From Blastocatellia bacterium (GTDB lineage Bacteria > Acidobacteriota > Blastocatellia > Chloracidobacteriales > Chloracidobacteriaceae): a stretch of 64,000 bases of DNA. Under the pieces are notes generated by a model that had not been told where the DNA came from, searched no databases, and saw only the letters and a program-made list of their open reading frames with translations. Where the stretch lies: the NCBI GenBank assembly GCA_019695185.1, contig JAIBAN010000028.1, positions 1-64,000 on the forward strand. Reading direction: 5' to 3'. Shown here one piece after another: positions 2,253 to 64,000 of the stretch; positions within the stretch are counted from its first letter, which is position 1, and every line of letters begins with the position of its first letter. The position numbers and the translations under genes were made by a program.

Positions 2253-3300
2253 AAATGATGGAGGTCATTTCGTCGCTTGAGTCACGGCTCCGCTCAACGT
2301 GATTGAGGGTTTTTTCAACCGTATAAATGGTCTGGCCCTGTGATTCAAAATAGGTTCGGGCCAGCAATTCGGCCACCAGACCGGTGGAAACCAACTGCAC
2401 ACCCGCCAAAATCAGCAGCATGCCCATCATCATGAGCGGTCCATGCTGCAAAAAGACATCCCCGCCGCTCACCAGTTTTTTGAGCACCAGAAACACACCA
2501 ATCAACCCGCCCGCCAGCATGCCCAGGAAGCCAACCGCACCAAAAAAATGCAGCGGTCGGGTGACATACTTGAGCAAAAATCGCACGGTCAGCAAATCAA
2601 ACATCACCCGGAAGGTGCGGGAAATGCCGTAGTGTGAGGCACCGCTTTCGCGGTTGATGTTTTTAATCGGAACCTCGACGATTTTGGCACCATTCCAACT
2701 GGCAAGGGCCGGAATGAACCGGTGTAGTTCGCCATACAGTTTGATGCGTTTGATGGTGTCGCGCCGATAGGCTTTGAAGGTCGTGCCAAAATCATGCAAT
2801 TCGACTCCGGAGAGCTTGGCCATCAGCCAATTGGCAATCCGGGAGGGAACCCGCCGCATGACCAGATTGTCAATCCGTTTTTTGCGCCAACCGCTGGCCA
2901 GGTCGTACCCTTCGCGGATTTTCTCGACCAGGTTGGGGATGTCAGCCGGGTCGTGCTGCAAATCACCATCCATCGAAATAATGATTTCGCCCTGAGCATA
3001 ATCAAACCCGGCAGCCAGAGCCGGAGTTTGACCGAAATTCCGTTTAAGTTTGATGACTTTCACCCGCGCATCCCGCGCGGCAATTTCAGCCAACAGGCGA
3101 TAGGTCCGGTCGGTGCTGTTATCATCCACAAACACAATTTCAAAGGAGGGGTAACGGGTTTCCATCACCTCCAGCAATTGTTTGTAGAGTTCCGGCACGC
3201 TGTCTTCTTCATTGTGCATCGGAATCACGAGCGAAAATTCCGGCTCGGTCGGATTCAAAAAAACATCGTCGGCCCGTTCAGACGAATAGGAAAGGGGCAT
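2251..3300 (-). CDS. Family 2 glycosyltransferase (DPM1/GtrB/ArnC-like)
   Basis: Transfers a sugar from a nucleotide donor to a polyprenyl-phosphate carrier at the cytoplasmic face of the inner membrane (family knowledge; donor unknown). 349 aa. A GT-A domain covers about residues 20-240, with SLVIPMHNEE, FVDDNSTD and the metal-binding MDGDLQHDP. Two hydrophobic segments near residues 245-330 anchor the protein, as in GtrB/ArnC. The start has a good AGGAG site. The lipid-linked product could feed the ArnT-like glycosyltransferase encoded 1.3 kb upstream on the same strand, which uses such donors. Confidence 0.87.
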   Translation of the reverse strand: MPLSYSSERADDVFLNPTEPEFSLVIPMHNEEDSVPELYKQLLEVMETRYPSFEIVFVDDNSTDRTYRLLAEIAARDARVKVIKLKRNFGQTPALAAGFDYAQGEIIISMDGDLQHDPADIPNLVEKIREGYDLASGWRKKRIDNLVMRRVPSRIANWLMAKLSGVELHDFGTTFKAYRRDTIKRIKLYGELHRFIPALASWNGAKIVEVPIKNINRESGASHYGISRTFRVMFDLLTVRFLLKYVTRPLHFFGAVGFLGMLAGGLIGVFLVLKKLVSGGDVFLQHGPLMMMGMLLILAGVQLVSTGLVAELLARTYFESQGQTIYTVEKTLNHVERSRDSSDEMTSII

Positions 3301-6594: not shown

Positions 6595-9500
6595 ACTCGG
6601 ATGCCTGATTCCCGCTGCCATTCTTCGAGCAGCAATGTCACATCCTGCCGCTCCACAAGCAGACGGCGGCGTGTTTCTTCCAGTGGCAGTTCCGCCGCAT
6701 GCCGGTCCAGGGCGGCTAAACTTTCCTGTAGGGCATCAATCGCGCCAGTCCGGTCCTGCCGGAACCAGCGGCAGCGTCCGATGACCCACAGACCTCTCCA
6801 TTCAATATCAGAATTCCCTGTTTCGCGGGCAATTGCAAGCGCTTCTTGCGAGGACTCCAGGGCGCGGCCAATTTCTTTTTGAATCCAATAGACTTCCGCC
6901 AGGGCTTGCAGGCACTCGGACCGAATTCCCCGGTCACGGGTGGTTTCGTTGGCAGCCTGTGCCTGATTGAGCATGGACAGGGCTTCTTTGATTTGTCCCA
7001 GTTTGGTATACATCAACGCAGCATTGACCAGGGCAATTTCGGCGGCCCGGTCGTCTTTGAATTCGCGGGCGCTCCGCAGCGCCAGCCGGTAATAGGCCAG
7101 GGCATCGGCATAGCGCCCTTCATGCCGGAAGGTTTCACCAATGTTGTTGAGCAGCGCCGCTTCACCCTGCCGGGATTGGGTTTCCCGGCCAATAATCAGA
7201 GCCTGCTGATAGTTATCGCGGGCCCGTGCGGTCTGGCCCTGGCTGTGCAGCGAGGAAGCCATGAGGGTCAGCGCCTTGCGTTCGGAGGCCCGGTCACCGG
7301 CAGCACGGGCGGTCTGAAGCATCTGATGCCAATTGGTTTCCAACGAATTGGCGGAACTGGCCAGGTGCATGGCCGGCAGCATTTGTGGGGTGACAGGGGT
7401 CAATGGAATCGAAGGGCCCTCCGGCTTGGCAGGTGGTGGAGCCACCGGTTTGACGGTTACCGGAGCTTGGGCCGCTTCGGCGGCTTTGACATCTTCGTCT
7501 TTGACTTTTTCGAGTTTTCCGGTCTTCTTCTTGGTTTTTTCGCCCTTTTCTTTGGCTGGTTCCTCCCGGCGGCGGATTTCCCGTACCGGGTCGGAGCGCC
7601 TGGCATCCTGGTCCAGCAAATCGTCCATGCCCAGTTCGTTGGCAAAATCCATCAAATCCGACAGGACCTCATTGACGGAGCGGGTTTCCTTAGCCGGTTT
7701 TTTCGCTTCCAGACCAGGAATCTCGACCTCGGCATGGCCCCGTCGGAAGATAATCGCTTCTCCGGCTTCCTCTTTTCCAGAAGCTTCTTTGGGCTCGGCG
7801 GGCAGGGAGAAATCCGGCAGGGCCGACGGCGGCGGCGGCGCAACGCCAGCTTCGCGGGGCATCCGGGCCAGTTGTTCCAAGGCCGACATGATGGTGGTCA
7901 CCCGCTCACCTTCGGCTGGCGGCGGGGCTTCAACAATCGTGGGCTGGCTTTCACGAATAAACGAAGTTGGCGAAATCCGCTTGTCCGATTCAGGGAACTT
8001 GGCTTGACTGACCACCGTGGGCGGGGCCGCCCCAGAGTGTTTGGGTCCCAGACTGGCTGATTTCTTTTCGACCTGTTCCAGCAGTTCATAGACCCGTTCC
8101 TTGTCCCGTGTAAACGATTCAAAACAATCGTCGTCGTCGGGCAGTTCGGAACGGAGTTTTTCAATGATGGCGATACATTCGGAAAGATGTTTTTTGGCTT
8201 CCTCGGTGCGGCCCTGGGCATGTTCGCAGAGTGCCCAGGAATAGGCGGTTTGCCAGGCCACGTGCGGGTATTCCAGTTCCTGCGCCAATGAAAAAGCGCG
8301 TCCAAAGGCAATACCCGCGTCGGTGAACTTGCCCAGCCGCCGGTAGGTATCCCCCATGACACAAAGTGTTTCGGCTTCGATATGGCGGCTGCCGGCTTCC
8401 CAGGCGATGGTGAGCGATTGTTCCAGCGCAGCCATGGCCGCCTTGTATTCGCCCCGTTCCAACTGCACTCGGCCAATATTGAGCAGATAGCGTCCCTCGG
8501 CTGCCCGGTTGCCGACATCGCGGGCAATCCGGACCGCCTGCTGGTAATTTTCCAGCGCTTCCCCATACCGGTCCTGCAAAAACATCACATCGCCCAGATA
8601 ACTGAGCGAAGCCCCTTCCCCCGGACGGTGCCCAAAGGCACAGGCCATATTGAGGGCCGGTTCATAGTAACTCTTGGCTTCTTCGAGCTGGCCCACCCGG
8701 AGGCAGATATTGCCCAGGAGGTTCAGATTGCGGCGTTCCTCAAAACTGTTTCCGAGGGAGCGGGCGATGGCCAGCGCCTGATTGACCTTGGTCAATGCCT
8801 GCCCGTAATGCCCCTGCTGGTAATACATCTGCCCGAACCCTGACAGAACGGCGGCTTTGCCGGCGCGGTCATCAATTCGTTCAGCCGCTTTGAGGGCCTG
8901 CTCCAGATAGTTGAGCGTCGAGCCATGTCGCCCTTGTGAGAGATAGGCTTCGCCGATGGTGAGCAGGGCCGCCACCACACCGGCGTGGTCCTCGATTTCC
9001 CGGAGGCGGGCCAGTCCCGCGTTGGCATACTCAAGCGCTTCTTCGGAAAATCCCTGGAGGTTGCACAGGCGACCCAGGGCCGCCTGGGTCCGCCCCAGTT
9101 GCGGCAGGTTGTGTTCCTGAGAGAGCGCCAATGCCTGTTGCAGTTGCTGTTCGGCTTCCTCAATCCGGGCACATTCAATCAGGAGCAACCCATAATTGAG
9201 ATGAAACTGAACCAGAACATCAGGTTTTTGAATTTCCAGGTCGAGGCTCTTGTTGCGGCTTTCTTCCATGGCACGCAACTGTTGCAGCCCCTGGGCGACC
9301 CAGCCGTAATATTTGCCAGCCTCGCCGATGGCAAAGGTCCGCCATTTGATATAGGCCGCTTCCATTGCATACTGCATGGCGTGTGACCAGTCTTCCGCCC
9401 GAAAATAATGATAGGCAAGGTCCCCGGCAAGGCGGTCCTTGGTCAGCGAAGCGGAGGAAATACTGGCGCTCTGAGCGTTCTTTTCAAGGTGCTCGGCCAC

Positions 9501-11882
9501 CCGGCCATGCAGGCGTTTGCGGCGGCGGCGGCTGATGCGTTTATACAAAACCCGGTGGACCGTGCTTTGGGCAAACACGTACCGGTCTTCACCGGAGGCC
9601 ACCACTTCGCGCAAAATCCCGGCCTTGAGTCCGGCCTCAACTGCATCCAACAGGTCTTCTTCGCGTAACTCGGTCACCCGTTGGAGCAGGTCAAAGGTGA
9701 ATTCCTCGCCAATCACGGCTGCCTGCGCCAGAATGTCGGCCACATTTTCCTTGAGGCGGCTGATTTGGGTTGCCACCAGGGCAGCGATTGAGTCGGGTAG
9801 GTCAAACTCGCTGACATCGTTACACATCCAGCCCATGGTTTTGTCGCGCCGGATTTGGCCGTTGGAAATCATCTGGCGAATCACTTCGCCCACATAGTAG
9901 GGGTTCCCTTTGGTTTCCTCGGCCAGCAACTGAATCAGGTTGGCTGAAATCTGGACGGCGTTGTTGAGCATTCCTTCGACCATGGCCCGGACTTCGCTGT
10001 TTGAGAGCGGGGGCAGCATGATTTGCTCAAACCCGCCGGCTTCATCCAACTGGCGCATCCAGCGGCGCAACGGATGGGTGTCTATCGAGAGAATCAAAGA
10101 CCGCATCGCCACAATCACCAGGACCCGTTCGGTCAGGGTGTTCCGGTTCAAATGGGCCAAAAATTCCAGGGTCACCTCATCTGCCCATTGCATGTCGTCC
10201 AGGAAGAGCAGCACTCCCCGTCGTCGGGCCAGCAGGACAAAGAGCCGGGTCAGTTGTTCAAAAATCCGGAATCGTTCCTGGTCACCGCCGCCCAGAGCCG
10301 TGCCGCCAAAAACGCTCAAATAATCATTGCTGACGAGTGCCTTGAGAAAGGCTTTGGAAACAAAGCGTTCGTCGTCAGGGGAAAGTGACTGGTCTTCATG
10401 CAGTTGGCGGTGAAACAGGCTTTGCACCGCCGGGCGCAACCCTTCGACCAGCACCTGGTACGGGGCGGCACCGCCATATTCAAAAAACTTGCCGGACAAA
10501 ATCAGTGGAGGTTCCTCGCCGGTCAAATCCTCCAGCCGTTCGCGCAGTTCTTCCGCCAGTCGGGTTTTGCCAATCCCCGGTTCACCAAAAATCAGCACGG
10601 GCCGCCCGCCCCGGCCTGACCTTGCTCGTTGCCAGGCGGCCCGCAAGGTTCCCAGTTCCGGTGTGCGGCCAACAAACCGCTCCATCGAGGCATAGGTTGG
10701 CATACTCACCGGTTCCCGCAATGGGCGCGGCGGAATGCTGTTGATGGGCGGCATTGAAAGCTCAGAAGGAGCCGGTGCCGAGGACGTTATCGAACCGCTC
10801 AGGTTGACCCGGACGCCGCCTTCATAGGAGGTCCGGCGACTGGCCGGTCCGGCAGGGCTGCCGCCTTCCTCCTGTTTCCGGTCCAGTCCGCTGGTGGTTT
10901 TGTCGGATTTTGGGGCGATGCCTTCAGTCGGTGTCAATTCCCGAATCAGGCGGCGGAAATCATTGGCCAGTTCTTCAGCCGTCTGCTGCCGTTTGTTCGG
11001 GTCTTTTTCGAGCGCCCGCATGACCACCGTTTCAACCGATTCAGGGATTTCGGGACGTTTCTCGCGCAATCGGGGCGGTGGCTGTTTGACCTGGGCAATC
11101 ACGATGGCGAGCGGGGCCGGTCCGTCAAATGGCAGGCTGCCGGAAAGCATCTCATAGGCGATAATGCCCAGGCTGTAGACATCCGTGCGGGCGTCAACAC
11201 TGTGCGCCTGGCATTGTTCCGGCGACATGTATTGCGGGGTTCCAATGATCCCGGTTCCAGTCAGGTTCATGACATTCGGACTGGAGCTGATAGCCAGTTT
11301 GGCAATGCCGAAATCGAGCACCTTGACGACTTCACCCGTGCGCAGTTTTTCCAGCATGATGTTGGCTGGTTTCAAATCGCGGTGAATGATGCCTTCCTGA
11401 TGGGCAGCGTGAACGGCTTCACAAGCCGGGGCCAGAATGCGGGCCACCCGCAACGGGTCCATGGGGCCGACCGCCTGGATTTCCTGGTTCAGGCTACAGC
11501 CTTCCAGATACTCCATGACAATGAAGGCTTCGCTCCGGTTGGTTGTCCCGTAATCGTAAATGGTGATGGCGTTGGGATGTTTGAGCCGGCCTGAAGCAAG
11601 TGCCTCGCGGCGAAACCGTTCCATGGCCGCAGGGTTTGAAACCAGGTCCGGATTGAGGATTTTAATGGCAACGCGGCGTTGCATGGTCGTATGAATGGCC
11701 TCGTAGACCGCACCCATACCACCACGCCCAATGAGACGAGCGACCTTGTATTTGTCATCAATTAAGTGATCAAAGATGTCGCCGGACGACTTTTTGGCCA
11801 CCAGTTTGAGCGTTTGGCCATCCTGAGGACAAATATTGTACTCGTCCGGATATGTCTTTGAGCACATCGGACAGGACTTCAT
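6591..11882 (-). CDS. Giant Ser/Thr protein kinase with AAA ATPase and TPR domains
   Basis: 1763-aa signalling protein. It opens with a Cys-pair ribbon (CPMC...CPQDG, residues 3-22). The kinase domain spans about 40-310, with Gly loop GRGGMGAVYEA, catalytic HRDLKPAN and DFGIAK. After a Pro/Ser-rich linker comes an AAA_16-type ATPase, with P-loop GEPGIGKTR near 430 and Walker B LLFLDDMQWAD. Long arrays of TPR-like helical repeats follow (about 800-1270), then a charged, Pro/Lys-rich low-complexity stretch (about 1330-1510), then a final TPR block. The order resembles PknK- and MalT-like regulators but has no LuxR HTH. All kinase key residues are present, so it should be active. ATG at 11882 is preferred over TTG at 11903 because the protein then begins with the ribbon. 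Confidence 0.9.
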   Translation of the reverse strand: MKSCPMCSKTYPDEYNICPQDGQTLKLVAKKSSGDIFDHLIDDKYKVARLIGRGGMGAVYEAIHTTMQRRVAIKILNPDLVSNPAAMERFRREALASGRLKHPNAITIYDYGTTNRSEAFIVMEYLEGCSLNQEIQAVGPMDPLRVARILAPACEAVHAAHQEGIIHRDLKPANIMLEKLRTGEVVKVLDFGIAKLAISSSPNVMNLTGTGIIGTPQYMSPEQCQAHSVDARTDVYSLGIIAYEMLSGSLPFDGPAPLAIVIAQVKQPPPRLREKRPEIPESVETVVMRALEKDPNKRQQTAEELANDFRRLIRELTPTEGIAPKSDKTTSGLDRKQEEGGSPAGPASRRTSYEGGVRVNLSGSITSSAPAPSELSMPPINSIPPRPLREPVSMPTYASMERFVGRTPELGTLRAAWQRARSGRGGRPVLIFGEPGIGKTRLAEELRERLEDLTGEEPPLILSGKFFEYGGAAPYQVLVEGLRPAVQSLFHRQLHEDQSLSPDDERFVSKAFLKALVSNDYLSVFGGTALGGGDQERFRIFEQLTRLFVLLARRRGVLLFLDDMQWADEVTLEFLAHLNRNTLTERVLVIVAMRSLILSIDTHPLRRWMRQLDEAGGFEQIMLPPLSNSEVRAMVEGMLNNAVQISANLIQLLAEETKGNPYYVGEVIRQMISNGQIRRDKTMGWMCNDVSEFDLPDSIAALVATQISRLKENVADILAQAAVIGEEFTFDLLQRVTELREEDLLDAVEAGLKAGILREVVASGEDRYVFAQSTVHRVLYKRISRRRRKRLHGRVAEHLEKNAQSASISSASLTKDRLAGDLAYHYFRAEDWSHAMQYAMEAAYIKWRTFAIGEAGKYYGWVAQGLQQLRAMEESRNKSLDLEIQKPDVLVQFHLNYGLLLIECARIEEAEQQLQQALALSQEHNLPQLGRTQAALGRLCNLQGFSEEALEYANAGLARLREIEDHAGVVAALLTIGEAYLSQGRHGSTLNYLEQALKAAERIDDRAGKAAVLSGFGQMYYQQGHYGQALTKVNQALAIARSLGNSFEERRNLNLLGNICLRVGQLEEAKSYYEPALNMACAFGHRPGEGASLSYLGDVMFLQDRYGEALENYQQAVRIARDVGNRAAEGRYLLNIGRVQLERGEYKAAMAALEQSLTIAWEAGSRHIEAETLCVMGDTYRRLGKFTDAGIAFGRAFSLAQELEYPHVAWQTAYSWALCEHAQGRTEEAKKHLSECIAIIEKLRSELPDDDDCFESFTRDKERVYELLEQVEKKSASLGPKHSGAAPPTVVSQAKFPESDKRISPTSFIRESQPTIVEAPPPAEGERVTTIMSALEQLARMPREAGVAPPPPSALPDFSLPAEPKEASGKEEAGEAIIFRRGHAEVEIPGLEAKKPAKETRSVNEVLSDLMDFANELGMDDLLDQDARRSDPVREIRRREEPAKEKGEKTKKKTGKLEKVKDEDVKAAEAAQAPVTVKPVAPPPAKPEGPSIPLTPVTPQMLPAMHLASSANSLETNWHQMLQTARAAGDRASERKALTLMASSLHSQGQTARARDNYQQALIIGRETQSRQGEAALLNNIGETFRHEGRYADALAYYRLALRSAREFKDDRAAEIALVNAALMYTKLGQIKEALSMLNQAQAANETTRDRGIRSECLQALAEVYWIQKEIGRALESSQEALAIARETGNSDIEWRGLWVIGRCRWFRQDRTGAIDALQESLAALDRHAAELPLEETRRRLLVERQDVTLLLEEWQRESGIRV

Positions 11883-12374
11883 GCCGCGTGTCTCACGATT
11901 CAAAGGTGCTCACCAGTGAAACCGGCTTGATGAACACGATAAGTTTAATCCCCGAATAAATGAGTGTATGTTGAGAAATGAAGGCGAAGGCACCGGATCC
12001 GGCAGGGTAGACATACCGAAGCGGGCAATCGTCAGTATAACTAGGCTTGGTAAAGCAAATCAATTCCCCGAACGGCGACTATACCATTAGCCGCACGCTC
12101 TTTGCTATTTGGTTTTCAGAACTTTTTGGCAAAGTTGTGGAGAAATCCAAGGGTCCGGGGGCCAGGATTCAGGGGCCAGGGTTCAGGGGCCAGGGTTGGA
12201 GGTTTTCAAAACTTATTGAGTAAATGTGTATTGACTTCTTTCCTCCTGGAATCCAAGAATTCCCTAAACCCTAAACCCTAAACCCTAAACCCTAAACCCT
12301 AAACCCTAAACCCTAAACCCTAAACCCTAAACCCTAAACCCTAAACCCTGAACCCTGAACCCTGAACCCTGCTC
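11883..12374. repeat. 492-bp gap with 14-bp repeats and a (CCCTAAA)12 array
   Basis: Divergent promoter region between the kinase gene and the exporter operon. At 12156-12202 there are two to three TTCAGGGGCCAGGG units (14 bp, twice seven). At 12262-12345 there are twelve exact CCCTAAA heptamers, then three CCCTGAA and a final CCCTG ending at 12371. The two arrays are partly complementary. The rest (11883-12150) is unique sequence that probably holds the promoters; I see no confident -35/-10 pair. The array ends three bases before the HlyD start codon. Confidence 0.85.
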
Positions 12375-54863: not shown

Positions 54864-55048
54864 AGCAGGCAACTTTGAGAAAACTGTTGGTCAGGATTGA
54901 AAAGACGGCATGCTGCCTGAACCGGCAGGCGACATCAAGGCCGAAATTTTTTTGGTGGCAGCCATCCAAATCTGGCTGCACCTCCGTATTGGCCCGGTAT
55001 ACCAGTCCAAATGCAGCCACCGCACATCTTTTTTTATGGAAAAAGAAT

Positions 55049-58000
55049 ATGTTCCAGACCTCCCGATGCCGGGCTTTGCTCTGCATGCTTGTCTTATTCT
55101 GTCTGTGGGGGATCCCCTCTCCTCTGCTGGCCGCACCTGGATCTTCGCTGAAAAGCACCCCTGTTCTTCCTTTGCAGAATGAATCGGTTCCGGTTTTGGG
55201 CCTGCACCAATCAGTTGACCGGGAAATGAATCCCGGCGAAACGCATTCCTACCTGATCCACCTGGAAGCAAATCAGTTTTGCCGGGTGACGGTGGAGCAA
55301 AAAGGAATCGATGTCGAGGTCCAGGTATATCGGCCCGATCAACAATTGGTTGCAAAGGTAAATGACCCTGGCGGGGCTTTGGCACCGGAAAATATCTACT
55401 GGATCACTGACACAGCGGGCACCTACCGGCTGGAGATCGTTTCGGACCGGGAGATGGGACTGCCGGGCCGCTATCAGGTTTTGATTCAGGACATCCATCC
55501 GGCAACGGAACTGAACCGAGTGCAGGTCAACGCCCAAAAAGCGTTTGACACCGCCCAGATGTTCCATGAAAAGAAAACTGCCGAGTCTTTCAAAAAAGCG
55601 ATTGAATCGTATCAGGAAACCATTCGCTGGGCCCGGCAGGCGCAAGACCAAAGGTTGGAAGTAACTGCCTTGAATGGAATGGGGCAGGCGTTCCATTCAT
55701 TAAATGATTTCCCCCAGGCATTATCTGCCTATCAACAGGTGCTGCCCTTACGCCGCTTGCTGCAGGATCCTTCCGGAGAGGTTGCAACTTTAATCAACAT
55801 CGGAGCGGTTTATAACTTACAGGCAATTCCTCAAACGGCCCTGGGGTATCTCAACCAGGCGCTTGGGTTGGCGCAGGAGCATAACTTGCGCCAACGCCAG
55901 GGGCAAATTCTGATGAATATGGGAACCTCCTATAATCTTTTGGGGAAAAACCAGAGGGCGGTGGAACTCTATCGGCAAGCGCTGGATTTCCATCGGGAAT
56001 TCCACAACCGCAGCTCCGAAGCGAGCACGTTGGACAGTTTGGGGGTTGCATACAAAGCACTGGGCGAATTCCAGTCGGCGGTGGAATGCTACCAGCAAGC
56101 TTTGACTTTAGCCCAGGCCCTGAATGACAAACGCAAACAAGCTGCGACGCTGAATAATTTGGGAATGGTGTATAGTTCACTGAATGATTTCCGGAAAGCC
56201 TTGGAATATTTGAGCCGGGCGTTGCCTCTCATGGCTGAGACTGGAAACCGGGTGGGTGAAGCTGTGGTGTTGGCGAATCTGGGAATAGCTTATTTCGGAT
56301 TGAATGACAGCCAGCAGGCTTTGCGTCACTTGCACCGGGGGCTGGCGATCCTTGAGGCTGTGGGGAGCCAGAATCGGCAGGGCTTGCCGCTTCTTTCGCT
56401 GGGGCGGGTCTATCATGATTTGGGAAAACTTGACTTGGCACAGGAGTATTTCGAAAAAGCCCTGCAAAGTGTCCGGCAGGCGGGCGATCAGGTGAAAGAA
56501 GCCACTGTGTTAAGCAATCTGGGGTTTCTCTATCAGGCCTTGAACAAATCGGAACAGGCTGAGGAGTATTTCCAAAGTGCGTTGGTTTTACAGCAGACTT
56601 TAGGCAATGTCGGAGCCGAAGCGGTTGCACGATTTGACTTGGCACAATTCAGACGGGCCCAGGGAAACCTGCCGGAGGCCCTGGCTTTGATGGAAATGGG
56701 ACTCCGGCAGGTTGAAAGATTTCAGGTGAATCTGGAGCAACAAGACCTTCGCGTTTCCTATTTCGGCTCAACCCAGTGCCGGTTTGATGCATTCATTCAG
56801 TTACTGATGGAGTTGCACCGGCAGAATCCAAATCTTGGGTACGACCGGCGGGCACTCCAGGTCAGCGAACAAGGACGGGCGCGGTTGCTGCTAGAGAAGC
56901 TCCAGGTGGCACACACCAAAATCCACCGCTGGGCAGCACCCGAACTCTTGGAACAGGAGCAGGTGCTGCAACAGGAGTTCAATGCCAAAACGGAGGCTTT
57001 GACCCGGCTCAACAGCCAAAAACACACCCCGGAGCAGAAACAGAACCTGGAGCGGAAAATTGCGAGCTTACAAACCGAATTGCAACAGCTTGAGGTTCGT
57101 ATTCAAAAAGAAAGCCCGCATTATGCCGCGCTAAAGTATCCGAAAATGTACACCCTGGCTGAAATTCAACAGAAAGCCCTCGATGCGGATACCATCCTGT
57201 TGGAGTATGCGTTGGGGAACAAGGAAAGCTATCTGTGGGTGGTTACCCCAACCGGAATGAGCAGCCATGTTCTGCCAGGACGGGCGAAAATTGAGGAGGC
57301 TGCCCTCAGGGTTTATCAATTGATAACTGCCCGTGAACAACGGCCTTTTGAATCGAATCCGGAAGTGGCAACCCGCAGCCGGCAGGCGGATATTGAATTT
57401 CCCAGGGCGGCAGCAGAGTTGAGTCAGATGCTGTTGGGGCCGGTGGCCGGCCAGTTAGGGGGAAAACGGCTGTTGATTGTAGGTGACGGTGTTTTGCAGT
57501 ATCTGCCATTTGCCGCGTTACCTGAACCGTCAGGCTCTGGGGGCAGGGTTCAAAGTTCAGGGCAGGTGCCCCAAAAATCCAAAGCTGGCTTGCCTCCCAA
57601 GACTCCCAAGGTTGATTCAGCTCTCAACTCTCAGCTCTCAGCCCTAAATCCTTTAGTTGTGACTCATGAAATTGTCATGTTGCCTTCGGCTTCCACGTTG
57701 TTGGTGCAAAGAGAAGCGCCGGAACAGCGGCTTCAGGGAGCCCAATCCATTGCGATTTTTGCCAACCCTGTTTTTTCAGCCACGGACAAACGGGTGCAAG
57801 GCAGGTTGGAAGGGACGGACACAGCCTCCACTCCGTCTGACGTAGGCTTAGGCTCGGACCGCAGCCTGGACTGGGCGGCAAACCTGGATTCGGTTCCTGA
57901 AACCGAATCCATTGCCCGTGACATTTTAGCGCTGGCTCCGGTTGGAGAAAAGAAACTGGCAGTTGGATTTGATGCCAATTTGCAGACTGCAACTGCTCCT

Positions 58001-58510
58001 GAATTGAATCAGTACCGCATCATTCATTTTGCCACTCATGGTTATTTGAATACGGATCCGGAGTTGTCAGGGGTGGTTTTGTCATTGGTGGACCGGATGG
58101 GAAACCCGCAGCCAGGGGTTCTGACAGCCAATCATGTGTATAACCTCAACCTGGCGGCAGACCTTGTGGTTCTGAGCGCCTGTCAAACCGGGCTGGCTCT
58201 CGATTTCAAAGAAAACCAGGACCCGGTCAAGCGGACCCAGGTTTTGCAGCAAGTGAAAGGGCAGGGGCTGACCGGACTGGCACGTGGATTTATGTATGCC
58301 GGGGCGGAACGACTGGCCGTCAGTTTGTGGAACATCCGGGTGAAAGGCACGCGGGAACTGATGAACCGCTTTTATGCCGGAATGTTCGGACCGCAAAAAC
58401 TGTCCCCCGCTGCCGCCTTGCGGGCGGCGCAAGTGGCGATGTGGAAAGAATCCAAATGGAATGCCCCTTATTACTGGGCCGGGTTTGTGCTGATTGGGGA
58501 ATACCGCTAA
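55049..58510 (+). CDS. Secreted TPR-CHAT (caspase-like) protein
   Basis: 1153 aa. A signal peptide (about 1-29, ending LLAAP) is followed by a beta-rich prepeptidase-like domain (about 50-150: MNPGETHSYLIHLEANQFCR), about nine TPRs (about 170-560), a coiled coil (about 640-690) and a C-terminal CHAT domain (about 720-1153). The CHAT His (IIHFATHGYL) and Cys (VVLSACQTG) of the caspase-like dyad are both present, so it may be an active protease. About 40 residues (near 829-868) between LPFAALPEP and LVVTHEIVMLPSAST are encoded by intergenic-type repeat DNA. ATG 55049 starts the signal peptide. Confidence 0.9.
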   Translation: MFQTSRCRALLCMLVLFCLWGIPSPLLAAPGSSLKSTPVLPLQNESVPVLGLHQSVDREMNPGETHSYLIHLEANQFCRVTVEQKGIDVEVQVYRPDQQLVAKVNDPGGALAPENIYWITDTAGTYRLEIVSDREMGLPGRYQVLIQDIHPATELNRVQVNAQKAFDTAQMFHEKKTAESFKKAIESYQETIRWARQAQDQRLEVTALNGMGQAFHSLNDFPQALSAYQQVLPLRRLLQDPSGEVATLINIGAVYNLQAIPQTALGYLNQALGLAQEHNLRQRQGQILMNMGTSYNLLGKNQRAVELYRQALDFHREFHNRSSEASTLDSLGVAYKALGEFQSAVECYQQALTLAQALNDKRKQAATLNNLGMVYSSLNDFRKALEYLSRALPLMAETGNRVGEAVVLANLGIAYFGLNDSQQALRHLHRGLAILEAVGSQNRQGLPLLSLGRVYHDLGKLDLAQEYFEKALQSVRQAGDQVKEATVLSNLGFLYQALNKSEQAEEYFQSALVLQQTLGNVGAEAVARFDLAQFRRAQGNLPEALALMEMGLRQVERFQVNLEQQDLRVSYFGSTQCRFDAFIQLLMELHRQNPNLGYDRRALQVSEQGRARLLLEKLQVAHTKIHRWAAPELLEQEQVLQQEFNAKTEALTRLNSQKHTPEQKQNLERKIASLQTELQQLEVRIQKESPHYAALKYPKMYTLAEIQQKALDADTILLEYALGNKESYLWVVTPTGMSSHVLPGRAKIEEAALRVYQLITAREQRPFESNPEVATRSRQADIEFPRAAAELSQMLLGPVAGQLGGKRLLIVGDGVLQYLPFAALPEPSGSGGRVQSSGQVPQKSKAGLPPKTPKVDSALNSQLSALNPLVVTHEIVMLPSASTLLVQREAPEQRLQGAQSIAIFANPVFSATDKRVQGRLEGTDTASTPSDVGLGSDRSLDWAANLDSVPETESIARDILALAPVGEKKLAVGFDANLQTATAPELNQYRIIHFATHGYLNTDPELSGVVLSLVDRMGNPQPGVLTANHVYNLNLAADLVVLSACQTGLALDFKENQDPVKRTQVLQQVKGQGLTGLARGFMYAGAERLAVSLWNIRVKGTRELMNRFYAGMFGPQKLSPAAALRAAQVAMWKESKWNAPYYWAGFVLIGEYR
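57540..57655. repeat. Repeat tract inside the CHAT coding sequence
   Basis: Contains GGGTTCAAAGTTCAGGG, TCCCAAGACTCCCAAG and CTCTCAACTCTCAGCTCTCA units, the same motif classes as the intergenic arrays. The reading frame is kept. The encoded segment is rich in Ser, Gly, Pro and Gln and interrupts an otherwise well-matched CHAT domain. Confidence 0.6.
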
Positions 58511-58625
58511 GTCAGGACTGAGGGCTGGACTGAGGCTTGAGTTAAAAAGTGTCAGCCGAGTCAATAATTCGAATTTGCTTCACAAGGCATTACTCAGGGA
58601 TGGGGCAGAAAAAAGGATACCGATT

Positions 58626-58715
58626 TCGGGCTTCGGGTTTGAAAGACTGCGGATGTCACCCTGAAATATGTCAAATTTTGTGCCGCCTTCCACAATTTTC
58701 GAACCCGAAGCCCGA
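58626..58715. terminator. Inverted repeat between convergent genes
   Basis: TCGGGCTTCGGGTTTGAA (58626-58643) pairs with TTCGAACCCGAAGCCCGA (58698-58715) with one mismatch. It lies in the 252-bp gap between the CHAT gene and the convergent membrane-protein gene. Single CAGGACTGAGG and CCTCAGT units flank it. Confidence 0.6.
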
Positions 58716-58762
58716 TGGTTGTATATCTTTTTCCGACTCCCTCAATCCTCGGTCCTCAGTTC

Positions 58763-61054
58763 TCAATTTTGATTTGGTTCGGGTGGAGTCTTGGCTTTTT
58801 TCTCATCTGCGAGCGTGGTTGCCAGCCGACGGGCAATTTCCGCTGGAGTTTCATTCGTTGAAACCCGCTTTCGAGCTAACAGTTCACCTTTGGAATTGAT
58901 AAGCTGGAAGACCCAGAACCGGTTTCCGTCGTGATTCTCCACCAGCCATTTGAGCAGGGCATCAGCCTGATTTTTTTCCGTCACAATGGTGAAATCGTAC
59001 TGGGCCAATGCTTCAGCCAGAGCCGGAGCCAACTCCTCATCCTGACTGGTTGGATTTGCCGGAAGTGCAATCACGATGGCTTCAACCTGGCTGAGGTCGG
59101 CGACACTATTCGTTCCAGGAGACAACATTTGGTCGTCCTCCGGGGTGACCGCAGTCATCACTGGAGCCGACTTTTTCGGTACCGGTTGTTTGGCAACCGC
59201 TTCTTCTTTGGGCAAGGGGACAGTTGGCGCGGGCTTTGGTTCGGCAATCGGAACAGATTTTTGGTTCGGAACTGGTGGCACACCCTCTTTTTTCACCACC
59301 GGATTGGCCGGAGTTAGCCGGGTCTGGAATGTGTGAAAAGCCAACCAGCCACACATCATCAACACCAGTGCGGTAACCCCGACCGGAACCAGCAGGCTGG
59401 GCTGGGGAAGGTGAAAAGAAACCTGTCGGACCGCCTGCCGCGTCCGTTGCCACAGGCTTGAGGGGTGATAGCTGAGGGTCACCGTCAAAGGAGAGGTTTC
59501 CGGCTCGGTTTCCGGCTCATCAAATTGAAACTGGATGGCCGCACCTTCCTCAAGTTGAACTGAATATGAGGCGTTGCCCCACAGCCGTTCGGACCAGGAA
59601 CGGATTTTTTGCCGGAAGGCCGGCACACAGGAGGCAATCGGAATCAATCCTTCCGGCGTCACGGCCACCACTTTGATGAGTTTAGTTTGGGCTGGAACCG
59701 TGAAAGAGAGAGTCCCGGTCCGGGCAGGACGGATTTCCCCTGTTTTTTGCCCATCAGCAAAAACCAGCCAGGTGGTTTGGGCTCCAACATCTGAACCCGG
59801 ACGGTCGGCCCGTGCCACAAAGGCAATGGCCAATTCCTGAAAATCGGTTCCGGACTTCAACACTGGGCGGTGGTTGGATGGGTGAGACATAGGAGGGCGT
59901 CCTTGTGATTTCGGAATGTGAAAGCGGGGAACCGATAAATCAGCCAGCTCCTCCGCCGACTCGGTTCCTTCCGCCCGTTTGCGCGGACCTGTAGCCCTGG
60001 CCAGCCCGCCGTAGCAATCCGGGCAAATGACCAGATGGGCGCAACTCATTTCCTTTTGGTCCGGATTGTTGAGTTGTTCCAGCCAGTCATAGAGCCGTTC
60101 GGCATAGCGGTGTCCGGTGGTTCCTGCTGCTCCGGTCAGGCACCCGGTGGCCCAGGGAGTCAGGCGGCGGAGCCAGTTTTGCACTACTCGCTCCAGGAGC
60201 GGTTGCTCCGGTGCCGGAGCAGGCGGAGAAAGTGTTTCAGACTTGGGTTCCGGTACCAGAAATGCTCCAAATCGTTCTTTGATGCGGTTCTGGAATTTGG
60301 CTTTGAGGGTATAGAAATATTGCCCTCCCAGCGCGTTGGGGCTGAGGAGGCTGCATAGTTCCGTCACAAAACTCAGTGGGTAGTCATAAATCAAATGACT
60401 CACGACCAGCGCGACTTGCGAGGCGTTGCCTTCGACTGCATCCTGAATCAGGAGTTCGATATAACGTGCCGCCAAGTCCGATTCTGTCAAGGGGAGTCTG
60501 TGCAGATTGGCACTCAATTTGGCTAAGTGTGGGTCACAGGAAATTTCACTGCACTCAAGTTCCCGTTTCAATTTGCTTTCTGTAATCGGCTGACTGGGTT
60601 GCCAGTGGGCCTGTATTTCCGCATCGCAGGTGTGCAGCCAGTGCAGCAGATAGTCGTTTTCCTGAAACCGCTCCCATTTTTGGGCCTCGCACCAAATCAG
60701 ATATTGAAAAAGCTGGGCCCGGTTGGGCAGCACTTTGGTCGCTTTACCAGCCTGATAGGAGCGGCGGTAATGCTCCTTTTTCTGGGCCAGCCGTTTGACT
60801 TGAATCGCTGCGTCGAGTGTGATTTGAAACGCAATTTCCTCATCCGGCACCAGCGCGGCAGCCAATTCCAGCGCCTGCGGGGCAAAGCCGAGCAACTCGC
60901 GGTCAATTTCTCCAACGCGGGCCAGCATGGAGAGGGTCGAAGCCAGAACGCCTTCAAGCCTTTGGCGGTCAAACCGTTCACCTGAAGTATTTTGAGGGGC
61001 AGAAGTGGGATGGATTTCAAACATACGGTGTTCTTTGATTGCAAAACTGGACAT
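58763..61054 (-). CDS. Large single-span membrane protein of unknown function
   Basis: 763 aa. The N-terminal half (about 1-300) is helical and soluble. Around residues 325-345 is a Cys/His cluster (SCAHLVICPDCYGGLAR) resembling an anti-sigma zinc finger. About 395-520 is a beta-rich segment (TTWLVFADGQKTGEIRPA). One transmembrane helix follows near 565-585 (VTALVLMMCGWLAFHTF), then a Pro/Lys-rich linker and a C-terminal domain (about 660-763) with YDFTIVTEKNQADALLKWLV. I do not recognise the family. It is convergent with the CHAT gene. Its start faces the shared inverted repeat upstream of the 61365 gene, so it may respond to the same regulator. Confidence 0.75.
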   Translation of the reverse strand: MSSFAIKEHRMFEIHPTSAPQNTSGERFDRQRLEGVLASTLSMLARVGEIDRELLGFAPQALELAAALVPDEEIAFQITLDAAIQVKRLAQKKEHYRRSYQAGKATKVLPNRAQLFQYLIWCEAQKWERFQENDYLLHWLHTCDAEIQAHWQPSQPITESKLKRELECSEISCDPHLAKLSANLHRLPLTESDLAARYIELLIQDAVEGNASQVALVVSHLIYDYPLSFVTELCSLLSPNALGGQYFYTLKAKFQNRIKERFGAFLVPEPKSETLSPPAPAPEQPLLERVVQNWLRRLTPWATGCLTGAAGTTGHRYAERLYDWLEQLNNPDQKEMSCAHLVICPDCYGGLARATGPRKRAEGTESAEELADLSVPRFHIPKSQGRPPMSHPSNHRPVLKSGTDFQELAIAFVARADRPGSDVGAQTTWLVFADGQKTGEIRPARTGTLSFTVPAQTKLIKVVAVTPEGLIPIASCVPAFRQKIRSWSERLWGNASYSVQLEEGAAIQFQFDEPETEPETSPLTVTLSYHPSSLWQRTRQAVRQVSFHLPQPSLLVPVGVTALVLMMCGWLAFHTFQTRLTPANPVVKKEGVPPVPNQKSVPIAEPKPAPTVPLPKEEAVAKQPVPKKSAPVMTAVTPEDDQMLSPGTNSVADLSQVEAIVIALPANPTSQDEELAPALAEALAQYDFTIVTEKNQADALLKWLVENHDGNRFWVFQLINSKGELLARKRVSTNETPAEIARRLATTLADEKKAKTPPEPNQN

Positions 61055-61364
61055 TCCAGGCGGCCTCTCTGGATACCTTCAAGGGTACAGCTTCTTATAT
61101 TTTTCGGGCATTTCACTTTTCAGTGAAATTTTTTGTCGAAAAGTGAATCAGTCTGGGAGTGTGGTGAGGGTATGCTCCAACTCGCTGCGGAAAGATCGTT
61201 GCGAGCCATTGTCTGGACATCGCTACGTATTGGCTGCCGTTTTAGGATGTTAGGTTCGCAACGATTTTTTCCACCCTTTCTCCAATCTCCCTTTTCAACT
61301 TGTCCAACGCCCGCCGTTTGTGATTCCGGGCATTTTTTCCCTTGCACAGGAAGTAAAGCTCCCT
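61055..61364. other. 310-bp divergent regulatory gap
   Basis: Holds the first copy of the shared inverted repeat (61112-61147) and its -10-like box. From 61177 to 61364 no repeat or gene is apparent; this would be a 5' leader of about 180 bases for the secreted-protein gene. Confidence 0.6.
61112..61176 (+). promoter_or_regulatory. Shared operator/promoter, copy 1
   Basis: TTCACTTTTC (61112-61121) and GAAAAGTGAA (61138-61147) form a 10-bp inverted repeat with a 16-bp spacer. After 23 more bases comes TATGCT (61171-61176), a -10-like hexamer. The same layout precedes both precursor genes. Confidence 0.7.
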
Positions 61365-62282
61365 ATGAAAAGACCACGTTACAGATTTGTATTGATTTGG
61401 GTCATGGCAGTCGTGTTGAGTTTTTGCGGCATCCAGACCCGGCTGGCTGAGGCAAAACAGGTGCCGGTGCCGAATGCACAGACCCAAACCGGGAAAGAAA
61501 GACGGTTCAGCCGGATTGGATTTCCTCAGGAACCAGCGGAAGTTCTTTCGTTCAATGCTTCCGGTGACGTAATCCCGCTTTCAGGCAAGCCCTTTGCGGC
61601 TGGTGACGATTGGTTGCAGGGACTTTCCCTGCAACTCAAAAATACTTCCCGTCAAGCGATTCAATATGCGGAAATCGCCTTGTCCGTTCCGGGTTCACAA
61701 CCTGGTTTGGTCGCGCCGAACAGTCAGATGGCCCGCACCGTCCTGCTGACCTTTGGAAAGCTCAGTGCGGCGGATGACGTAGCTCCCGTGCCACCTTTGC
61801 TTTCCGGACAGTCTGCCACTCTCCACTTTACCCCTGATCAATATGCTTCTTTCCAACTGATGCTGGAAGAGTCCGGCTTGCATTCCCCAATTCACCATGC
61901 CCAGGTGAACGTACGGGGAATTCTCTTTACTGACAATACGGTTTGGATGGGTGGAAAAAGTTTTTATCCAGCCAGTGACGGCATCAGTTGGCTGGAAAAA
62001 GCGAGGAGCGGCGTTCCGCAACGGGAAGTGGCCAAAGCCGCTTATTCCGTTTCGCCGGGAAATGAATTTGCTCCGAGAGGTGCCTGTGGGGCCTACATCG
62101 GGGTGACACGGAGAACAAAGTGTACCGGAGCGCAATGCTCTCCACGCAATGTTTCCTATTTGGCACCTTTGATTGACCGGACCGTCTCGGGCTCTTATAC
62201 GACCAAGTTTGAATACACCGCCTGTTCCGGATGCACTGGTCAGATTTGGGAAATTTTGGATTTTTGCAGCCTGCCTGAATAA
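61365..62282 (+). CDS. Secreted protein co-regulated with the graspetide precursors
   Basis: 305 aa. A signal peptide (about 1-30, ending RLAEA) is followed by a beta-rich domain (about 60-220: LSLQLKNTSRQAIQYAEIAL, QSATLHFTPDQYASFQLML) and a C-terminal part of about 70 residues with seven Cys (GACGAY, RTKCTGAQC, TACSGCTG, DFC), probably forming disulfides outside the cell. I do not recognise the family. Its promoter region carries the inverted repeat also found before both RiPP precursor genes, and a terminator follows it, so it is a separate unit of the same regulon. It could be a target, partner or export helper of the peptides. ATG 61365 begins the signal peptide. Confidence 0.8.
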   Translation: MKRPRYRFVLIWVMAVVLSFCGIQTRLAEAKQVPVPNAQTQTGKERRFSRIGFPQEPAEVLSFNASGDVIPLSGKPFAAGDDWLQGLSLQLKNTSRQAIQYAEIALSVPGSQPGLVAPNSQMARTVLLTFGKLSAADDVAPVPPLLSGQSATLHFTPDQYASFQLMLEESGLHSPIHHAQVNVRGILFTDNTVWMGGKSFYPASDGISWLEKARSGVPQREVAKAAYSVSPGNEFAPRGACGAYIGVTRRTKCTGAQCSPRNVSYLAPLIDRTVSGSYTTKFEYTACSGCTGQIWEILDFCSLPE

Positions 62283-62317
62283 TGAGGGGCTGGAGTCGAA
62301 ATGTGAAAACCTAAGGT

Positions 62318-62359
62318 CCGGAGTGTCTACCTTGACGTGGCACTCCGGTCATTTTTTTT
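62318..62359 (+). terminator. Rho-independent terminator
   Basis: CCGGAGTG (62318-62325) pairs with CACTCCGG (62341-62348), followed by TCATTTTTTTT. It ends the secreted-protein transcript 36 bp past its stop codon. Confidence 0.85.
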
Positions 62360-62394
62360 CGCAGGAATCCCGGTTTGGTTGAATCAAAAAGGGG

Positions 62395-62459
62395 TTCACT
62401 TTTCCATAAAAGATCATTCTGAAAAGTGAATCGGTTTAACTGCCGGTTGCCGGTAAACT
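62395..62459 (+). promoter_or_regulatory. Shared operator/promoter, copy 2
   Basis: TTCACTTTTC (62395-62404), 16-bp spacer, GAAAAGTGAA (62421-62430), then 23 bp to TAAACT (62454-62459). It would start a transcript with a leader of about 90 bases for the first precursor gene. Confidence 0.7.
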
Positions 62460-62552
62460 GGCTTGCGTGACGGGAACTGTCCCGGAAAGAGGACTGGGAA
62501 CATGTCCTCAAAATTTTTACCAACCCTAACTTTTTAACAGGAGAAACCTTCA

Positions 62553-62711
62553 ATGTCAGAAGCACTGCAACCTTTTGGAATCGAATTTTTTGAAGAAGTC
62601 AAACCGGCTGAAGTCCGTGGCAGCTTTTTCACTCATGTCATCACCAAGGATACCGTCCCCACCGGGAATAAAACCGATAAAGTGGTGGATAGCGAAGAAG
62701 ATTTTCGATAA
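62553..62711 (+). CDS. Putative graspetide precursor peptide 1
   Basis: 52 aa, too short for routine calling. The leader carries PFGIEFFEE (residues 7-15), resembling the PFFARFLE helix by which microviridin-type ATP-grasp ligases bind their precursors. After R-G-S-F (22-25) comes a core-like tail with many possible linkage residues: Thr27, 31, 34, 37, 41, Lys32, 40, 43 and Ser47 as nucleophiles, and Asp33, 42, 46, Glu48, 49, Asp50 as acids. A strong AGGAG lies nine bases before the ATG. It is paralogous to the next small gene and is followed by an ATP-grasp ligase gene. The core matches no ring pattern I know (not TxKxPSD, not TTxxxxEE). Confidence 0.8.
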   Translation: MSEALQPFGIEFFEEVKPAEVRGSFFTHVITKDTVPTGNKTDKVVDSEEDFR

Positions 62712-62745
62712 TTGACCATCCTTTGTCGAAGTGGGTATCTGGCCT

Positions 62746-62821
62746 GAGCCTGGAGTTGTCCCAACCAGCGTGAGTGTTTGTCGCTCCCCTGGTTCAACAG
62801 CTCCAGGCTCACGCTGTTTTT
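62746..62821 (+). terminator. Terminator with competing upstream hairpin
   Basis: GAGCCTGGAG (62746-62755) pairs with CTCCAGGCTC (62801-62810). CAGCGTGAG (62766-62774) pairs with CTCACGCTG (62808-62816), directly followed by TTTTT. The two stems share 62808-62810, so only one can form fully, as in attenuators. Confidence 0.6.
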
Positions 62822-62868
62822 AGTAACACAGAGAGCAGCCGGGCAGGGTTGGGGGCGCTGGGGTGAAG

Positions 62869-62933
62869 TTTAATTTTCCACTGAATTTTCTTCTGAAAAG
62901 TGAACAGTGATTTTTCAGGACTGGGCTTATGAT
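62869..62933 (+). promoter_or_regulatory. Shared operator/promoter, copy 3
   Basis: TTTAATTTTC (62869-62878; eight of ten bases as in the other copies), 16-bp spacer, GAAAAGTGAA (62895-62904), then 23 bp to TATGAT (62928-62933). It is upstream of the second precursor gene. Confidence 0.65.
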
Positions 62934-63071
62934 CCGGCTCGTTCGAAGGAAACAGGCCCCAAACGGCTGAAATGAAAGTGCTCCCATTTTGTGACACCAC
63001 ATCAGTTGCTTTGGATTGGTCCTTGCACCCTTCACATTTTACAACCCTAACTTTTTTCAGGAGAAACACAG

Positions 63072-63236
63072 ATGTCAGTTGAACAAGTCAAACCCTTTGG
63101 AGTCGAGTTTTTGGAAAACGCTGAAGTCATCGAATTTCATGGCAGCGTCGTGCTCCGGACCCGGAAGATTACACGGGAAACCACCCAGGCTGGAGGCCAA
63201 ATCGATTTTGGTGAAAGTGATGTAATCACGGACTAG
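63072..63236 (+). CDS. Putative graspetide precursor peptide 2
   Basis: 54 aa. Leader motif PFGVEFLE (residues 8-15) matches precursor 1 and the microviridin-type ligase-binding helix. H-G-S-V (23-26) aligns with R-G-S-F. The tail offers Thr30, 34, 37, 38, 53, Lys32 and Ser49 against Glu36, Asp45, Glu48, Asp50, Asp54, so the two peptides share the leader but differ in core. AGGAG lies eight bases before the ATG. A hairpin with a short T-run follows, then the ligase gene 122 bp away. Gly41-Gly42 are present but have no counterpart in precursor 1. Confidence 0.8.
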   Translation: MSVEQVKPFGVEFLENAEVIEFHGSVVLRTRKITRETTQAGGQIDFGESDVITD

Positions 63237-63283
63237 GTGAAGGTACACGCCCATCATTTACTTGATGCCTTCTTCCTTACATT

Positions 63284-63337
63284 GGCAGCCGGACGGGACT
63301 GTTGTGGGTTGTTCAAACACCTGCCCGGCTGCATTTT
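63284..63337 (+). terminator. Hairpin before the ATP-grasp gene
   Basis: GCAGCCGG (63285-63292) pairs with CCGGCTGC (63325-63332), followed by ATTTTT. It may let only part of the transcripts continue into the ligase gene, giving more precursor than enzyme. Confidence 0.6.
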
Positions 63338-63358
63338 TAATGCTTTTTGCATATTCTT

Positions 63359-64000
63359 ATGATTCTGATTCTGACCGAAGCCCAAGATGCCACTGCCGAT
63401 GACATGATTGAACGTTTCAAGGCGAAAGGCGTGCGTACCATTCGCTATGAAACCGCTGATTTCCCGCAGAAGGTGCAACATACCATCCGCAAAGGGGCCG
63501 GGATTTCCCAGGACCTGATGGGGATAAACGGCGAAACGATTGATCTGACTGAAGTTCGCACAGTGTGGAACCGTCGCCCCCAAGCTCCGTCGGTGACGGC
63601 AAACATGAGTGCGGAAGACCGCAAATTTGCCCAAAAGGAAACCGAGCTGATTTTTCGGGGTATTCTCCAAACCTTGCGGGACCGGTTTTGGGTCAACCCT
63701 TACTTGAACAGTCAGGTAGGTGAATACAAGCCCTATCAATTACAACTGGCCCAACAGGTTGGCTGGGAAATTCCGCAGACCCTGATTACCAATCAACCGG
63801 ATGAGGTGCGGGAATTTTATCGCCAGTTGGATGGAAATATTATTTATAAAGCTGTTTTTCCGCACACCCGTTTGGGGAATCCGCAGGCCGGCATTCCAGC
63901 CCAACTGATTTATACCAACCGGGTCAGGGAGTCCCATCTGGAGCAACTTGATGCGGTCGCCCATGCGCCTTGCCTGTTCCAGGAGTATGTGCCTAAAAAA
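63359..64000 (+). CDS. MvdD/MdnC-like ATP-grasp peptide ligase (partial)
   Basis: The first 214 residues are visible; the gene runs off the window. MILILTEAQDATADDMI is followed by VRTVWNRRPQAP (about 67-76), ETELIFRGILQTL, WVNPYLNSQVGEYKPYQLQLA (111-131) and GWEIPQTLITNQP, an order typical of graspetide ATP-grasp ligases (MvdC/MvdD, MdnB/MdnC). Lys124 and Lys164 fit ATP-binding positions. These enzymes make ester or amide side-chain links between Ser/Thr/Lys and Asp/Glu of the precursor core. No ribosome site is evident before ATG 63359. Only one ligase is in view; a second one or an acetyltransferase could lie beyond 64000. Confidence 0.88.
   Translation, partial: MILILTEAQDATADDMIERFKAKGVRTIRYETADFPQKVQHTIRKGAGISQDLMGINGETIDLTEVRTVWNRRPQAPSVTANMSAEDRKFAQKETELIFRGILQTLRDRFWVNPYLNSQVGEYKPYQLQLAQQVGWEIPQTLITNQPDEVREFYRQLDGNIIYKAVFPHTRLGNPQAGIPAQLIYTNRVRESHLEQLDAVAHAPCLFQEYVPKK

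Follow-up and report, generated by a model that had tools for sequence, protein, structure and literature searches.

We report a gene cluster in an acidobacterial genome that probably encodes graspetides, with precursors that would dock on their ligases through a shared leader, nested-ester rings in four of the five cores, cleavage by a C39 peptidase and export through an ABC/HlyD pump; taken as a whole, we hold this reading with fairly high confidence. Assignment to the graspetides follows from the ligases, the leader and the order of residues in the cores, from which the ring chemistry of the products is predicted. Judged against the curated models, with the numbered groups 25-43 (Carter et al. 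2026) outside that comparison, the cluster represents a new graspetide family by sequence; its mechanism is one already known, as its ring topology probably is too. This adds a sequence-defined graspetide family for the Acidobacteriota, in whose graspetide literature we found neither a characterised member nor a paper on the PFG-leader family, and its short leader tag picks out further members cleanly.

Organisation and host of the cluster

The window, the whole stretch of 64,000 nucleotides that was analysed, comprises bases 1-64000 of a contig that runs on to 78,255 within a genome of 8.33 Mb, and its edge splits the locus, which carries on past 64000 on the same strand. Five precursors sharing a leader (62553-66565), three ATP-grasp ligases, a C39-peptidase ABC exporter and an HlyD adaptor make up the cluster, all on the plus strand. 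Within the window lie precursors P1 (62553-62711, 52 aa) and P2 (63072-63236, 54 aa), each defined by its reading frame, leader and core pattern, together with the first part (63359-64000) of the graspetide ligase LigA (63359-64390, 343 aa). Beyond the window follow P3 (64437-64619), P4 (64733-64897), LigB (65021-66052), P5 (66389-66565), LigC (66896-67924), the C39-ABC exporter (67929-70121) and the HlyD-type adaptor (70362-71639). These genes appear to be arranged as three tandem precursor-ligase modules (P1 and P2 with LigA, P3 and P4 with LigB, P5 with LigC) that would share one exporter. The first-pass annotation had described two tiny genes with ribosome sites and an ATP-grasp gene after them in a non-cyanobacterial host, and this description holds: CAGGAGAAA stands ahead of each small gene, the ligase frame runs from the ATG at 63359 to contig position 64390, and the host belongs to the Acidobacteriota, in the family of Chloracidobacterium. 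Among Acidobacteriota, the FMO protein (PF02327) is known from Chloracidobacterium; its presence in three genomes of the host's family is the basis for this placement, while the host and G009, a genome of a second genus in that family, have no PF02327.

Downstream, the cluster is followed by an SSB gene and an opposite-strand peptidase-like gene, both of which appear unrelated. Directly upstream on the same strand lies a frame for a 320-aa protein that has a signal-like start and matches nothing in Pfam (61320-62282), and further upstream a long frame (54875-58510) contains TPR-like repeats and, towards its C-terminus, a region resembling a CHAT protease, as judged by eye from its translation. 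An Rfam scan of 56000-64000 gave no match. Folding identified a very stable, terminator-like hairpin with a U run after P1 (62741-62821, plus strand; -47.2 kcal/mol, z -8.1, 0/200 shuffles as good). A second hairpin, also ending in a U run, separates P2 from LigA (63285-63337, plus strand; -25.4 kcal/mol, z -2.65, 0/200 shuffles), and a third, lacking such a run, separates P4 from LigB (z -3.5). These hairpins are defined by folding, as a consensus terminator scan showed no excess over shuffles and did not list the P1 hairpin. They may hold the level of precursor above that of ligase, with the P2-LigA hairpin a possible attenuator.

Ligases, leader and their evolution

The curated full-length family that fits the ligases best is TIGR04187, which scores the three at 301, 301 and 298 bits (LigA, 301; all below the family cut-off of 350), followed by MvdC at 264-268 and MvdD at 237-250 bits (below cut-offs of 425 and 475; LigA, 264 and 237), with E-values to these three models of 1e-70 to 1e-90. 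LigA, the one ligase compared with Pfam, matches the MvdD pre-ATP-grasp domain PF21068 and RimK above cut-off, and its relatives in the PDB are the graspetide ligases MdnB, AMdnB, MdnC and CdnC (best 5ig8, E 1.7e-58), with whose solved structures the ATP-grasp-site motifs (Lys, Glu, Asp and Asn) align. Maturase models, domain and structural matches agree with the MvdD/MdnC likeness proposed at first pass, and all three ligases score much lower against RimK-type models. In a tree of 47 ligases, the deep forks of which are weakly supported, LigA, LigB, LigC and the G009 ligase (62-66% identical) form a clade with support 100/99, joined at 87/89 by two ligases of G256, a genome from a different family in the phylum. 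The actinobacterial enzymes and the class's microviridin-type pairs are placed elsewhere.

All five precursors carry the leader PFG[hydrophobic]E[FY][FL]E ahead of variable cores. In P1 (within 62553-62711, plus strand) the leader is MSEALQPFGIEFFEEVKPAEVRGS and the core FFTHVITKDTVPTGNKTDKVVDSEEDFR, and in P2 (within 63072-63236, plus strand) they are MSVEQVKPFGVEFLENAEVIEFHGS and VVLRTRKITRETTQAGGQIDFGESDVITD, confirming the PFG[IV]EF[FL]E motif first noticed in this pair and lending support to its putative role in recruiting the ligase. The precursors are small, possess a Phhx(1,2)h-like leader motif and place Thr/Ser/Lys donors upstream of C-terminal acceptors, which are the marks of membership in the graspetides. 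We searched 396 genomes of the phylum with a 24-base degenerate DNA pattern for PFG-x-E-[FY]-[FL]-E, using the reversed pattern as a control. The pattern occurs at seven sites in three genomes (five in the host, one each in G009 and G256), all directly upstream of a ligase of the graspetide type found here, against one match for its reverse; the leader is a specific tag for such ligase loci, beyond what chance would give. Matches in two further genomes (G133 and G160) from a class-wide search were set aside as chance, falling inside or across longer unrelated frames. A search of the host genome with the precursor alignment recovered P1-P5 and no others, and a Herpetosiphon plasmid ligase has an annotated small frame upstream without a PFG-type leader. 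Profile searches of the small proteins with curated precursor families gave no match, which places the precursors outside those models, in line with the initial interpretation. The order leader peptide-ligase-C39 exporter recurs in G009 (66% identity to the host for the ligase, 69% for the exporter) and in G256.

These data bear on two other explanations of the locus. The ligases might be RimK-like residue adders or protein taggers and the small peptides plain double-glycine bacteriocins, given the RimK-like ATP-grasp domain and a C39 exporter of the kind typical of unmodified bacteriocins. We regard this as highly improbable in light of the RimK-family score of 47 bits against 301 for TIGR04187, the presence of the MvdD pre-ATP-grasp domain and a leader-ligase linkage maintained across genera and families of the phylum. 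The products could also be cage peptides of the microviridin type, formed by an MdnB/MdnC pair, which the ligases do resemble, and genomes of the same class hold true microviridin loci with PFFARFLE, TLKYPSD and paired ligases. Here, however, no core contains TxKYPSD, Gly and Glu replace the Phe and Arg of that leader, and the ligase clade lies apart from the MdnB/MdnC-like pairs of the class. At the positions of the Arg-binding, leader-contact residues E191/D192/N195 of MdnC (PMC7823629), LigA, LigB and LigC have S-H-Q, S-D-R and S-D-R and the G009 ligase K-D-R, while most of one microviridin-type branch has E-D-D and the precursor-adjacent G256 ligase E-D-G. Core, leader and clade largely refute a microviridin assignment, which we give almost no weight. 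A charge swap pairing leader Glu with ligase Arg in LigB, LigC and G009 was considered and kept as a lead, LigA having Gln and the G256 ligase E-D-G.

LigB and LigC (65021-67924) share 429 identical nucleotides (codons 180-323) between flanks that are 48-77% identical, and LigA is 78-88% identical to both across most of this stretch, whereas over the first 180 residues the three diverge. Such a pattern suggests that the C-terminal half underwent gene conversion recently, an assembly error being a conceivable alternative, and this half takes in the segment aligned with MdnC E191, D192 and N195. In addition, a 5' block ahead of P1, running from CCAACCCTAACTTTTT to CAGGAGAAA (62520-62546, plus strand), is repeated ahead of P2 (63042-63068, plus strand; CAACCCTAACTTTTTTCAGGAGAAA) and P3, with 88% and 91% identity respectively over 35 nt. 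Together, the identical tract and the near-identical 5' blocks of the first three precursors suggest that the precursor-ligase unit has been duplicated repeatedly, with cores varying freely. A bolder scenario, which we consider rather doubtful, would treat the locus as a diversification cluster in which conversion preserves identity in the ligase halves that bind leader and ATP and lets N-terminal halves and cores diverge, yielding one recognition code, several ring scaffolds and one pump, with leader-ligase specificity governed by exchanged charges (Arg to Glu in the leader, Asn195 to Arg in the ligase). With three near-twin ligases and five cores, the cluster is naturally suited to testing whether ring formation depends on leader or core.

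Cores, predicted rings and leader removal

Every precursor carries D-x3-D near its C-terminus, within the last few residues, and four of the five cores fit [TS]x3[TS]-x14/15-Dx3D: P1 (T27-x3-T31-x14-D46-x3-D50), P2 (T30-x3-T34-x15-D50-x3-D54), P3 (T34/T38 and D54/D58) and P5 (T33/S37 and D53/D57), with P4 a variant (Tx2T-x15-Dx3D). With both spacings free at 0-5 and the loop at 4-21, a fit of four in five with Asp acceptors arose in 0 of 10,000 full shuffles and in 47 of 10,000 local-composition shuffles that kept the acidic tail (scan-corrected, at most 0.0047); with Glu also allowed, the counts rose to 25 and 268 of 10,000, the latter for local-composition (half) shuffles. T-x3-T on its own was discarded as evidence, since at least four of five arises in a quarter of shuffles. 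The spacing of donors and acceptors is that of fuscimiditide, in which Thr3-Asp22 and Thr7-Asp18 esters form a nested x3/x3 stem (PMC12291112), and the prediction is therefore of nested bis-ester stem-loops and no new ring class. In the proposed mechanism, the leader helix PFG-h-E-[FY]-[FL]-E of a ribosomal precursor of 52-60 residues would dock on the ligase, which would phosphorylate core Asp (or Glu) with ATP, allowing a Thr/Ser hydroxyl to attack with loss of one water per ring. The outer ester would join T(i) to D(j+4) and the inner one T/S(i+4) to D(j), closing a loop of 14-15 residues in the manner of pre-fuscimiditide, and the P4 product would have a variant ring pattern. A nested stem-loop is probably the best prediction for these four cores by analogy with this known topology.

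The cores had at first been judged to fit no known ring pattern and to be unlike each other, and neither view is supported: the D-x3-D end is common to all five and the fuscimiditide spacing to four. Accordingly, what had been proposed as an undescribed graspetide class is reduced to a new family inside a known class; the novelty survives at the level of sequence, while class and spacing had already been described. A related view, which we consider unlikely but worth weighing, is that each ligase gives its own core a different, undescribed ring pattern and that the common spacing arises by accident in sequence rich in Thr and Asp. In its favour, the cores align poorly and are mutually just 51-69% identical in DNA, the ligases differ over their first 180 residues, a single branch of ligases is reported to act on varied cores (PMC8939145), and the P4, G009 and G256 cores misfit the common spacing. 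Since neither outside relative meets [TS]x3[TS]-x14/15-Dx3D, the pattern may be local to the host genome. Against such an accident stand the universal D-x3-D terminus and the shuffle result for Asp acceptors, together with the identity of the best-fitting spacing to a known one, and we favour nested esters in the four fitting cores.

The exporter provides an indication of where the leader ends. Its C39 motifs are intact (NDCGPA, GHFVVLH and ADPA), and a Gly lies 16 residues past the leader Pro in all five precursors and in that of G009, followed by Ser in four, Asn in P5 and Met in G009. An intact C39 domain and a Gly at a fixed place make a boundary after the G-S or G-N pair likely, with cleavage at residues 23-25 and cores beginning at residue 25 or 26, correcting the start at about residue 27 suggested initially. 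The exporter's C39 domain would then remove the leader and the peptide would exit through the ABC/HlyD pump, as a product that may have inhibitory activity. Evidence against this reading comes from G009, where the Met after the conserved Gly makes an atypical double-glycine site and no HlyD gene lies alongside the exporter.

Relation to known systems

Other graspetide-like loci occur in the host and its relatives. A second one in the host genome (contig C176, 605-3098, minus strand) has an ATP-grasp ligase adjoining a TIGR04500 PpiC-related protein (155 bits, below the cut-off of 180), a pairing also seen in the partner-dependent system of rosaritide. Upstream of it lies a Thr/Gly/Asp-rich candidate precursor of 120 aa (2736-3098), and close by is a C39 exporter that carries a cyclic-nucleotide-binding domain. 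In G161, from a different family of the class, a rosaritide-like locus (6732-12063) combines a candidate precursor with a double-glycine-type leader LSDEQLRLVAGG, an ATP-grasp ligase, a TIGR04500 protein above cut-off (332 bits) and two frames that by eye resemble an HlyD-type protein and a C39 exporter. Five loci of class relatives (L101, L102, L103, L105 and L116) encode true microviridin precursors with PFFARFLE and TLKYPSD, one of which (L103, 950-1291) holds several KYPSD cores.

Among characterised systems, the TIGR04187 maturases (SAV_5884/TgmB, with TgmA precursors, and including MirB of rosaritide) are the best-scoring curated family, and P-[FW]-G leaders are also present next to relatives in Actinomycetota and Chloroflexota. 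However, the cluster ligases form a separate clade in the tree, with 32-37% identity to its actinobacterial and chloroflexotal members, and the cluster differs from TgmA systems in the lack of a curated model match for its precursors and in its C39 exporter and three ligases. Microviridin and marinostatin systems (MdnA, MdnB, MdnC) share the P-F-x-x-x-F-L-E leader, the MvdD pre-ATP-grasp domain and, by sequence, the ligase fold (PDB 5ig8/5ig9), whereas here Glu stands for Arg and Gly for the second Phe, and the ligases are not an MdnB/MdnC pair. In branch 1 of the CPR graspetides (Makarova et al. 2022), the majority of cores show the signature TxxxTx(6-10)Dx(1-4)D (PMC8939145), and two CPR ligases that may belong to this branch (L013 and L015) are 40-45% identical to LigA; neither locus yielded a PFG leader, and they join the clade without support. 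The main text of Carter et al. 2026 (groups 25-43) makes no mention of Acidobacteria. The closest parallel in core spacing is fuscimiditide (ThfA/ThfB, group 13), which shares T-x3-T and D-x3-D with four of the five cores (PMC12291112) and differs in its loop of 10 residues, against 14-15 in this acidobacterial host. No isoaspartyl methyltransferase was recognised by eye among the reading frames of contig positions 61300-78255, so that, unlike in fuscimiditide, no aspartimide is expected. Finally, no leader protease is reported to be known for the graspimiditides (PMC12291112), and in contrast to those systems the present cluster has a built-in C39 exporter that points to the likely site of cleavage.
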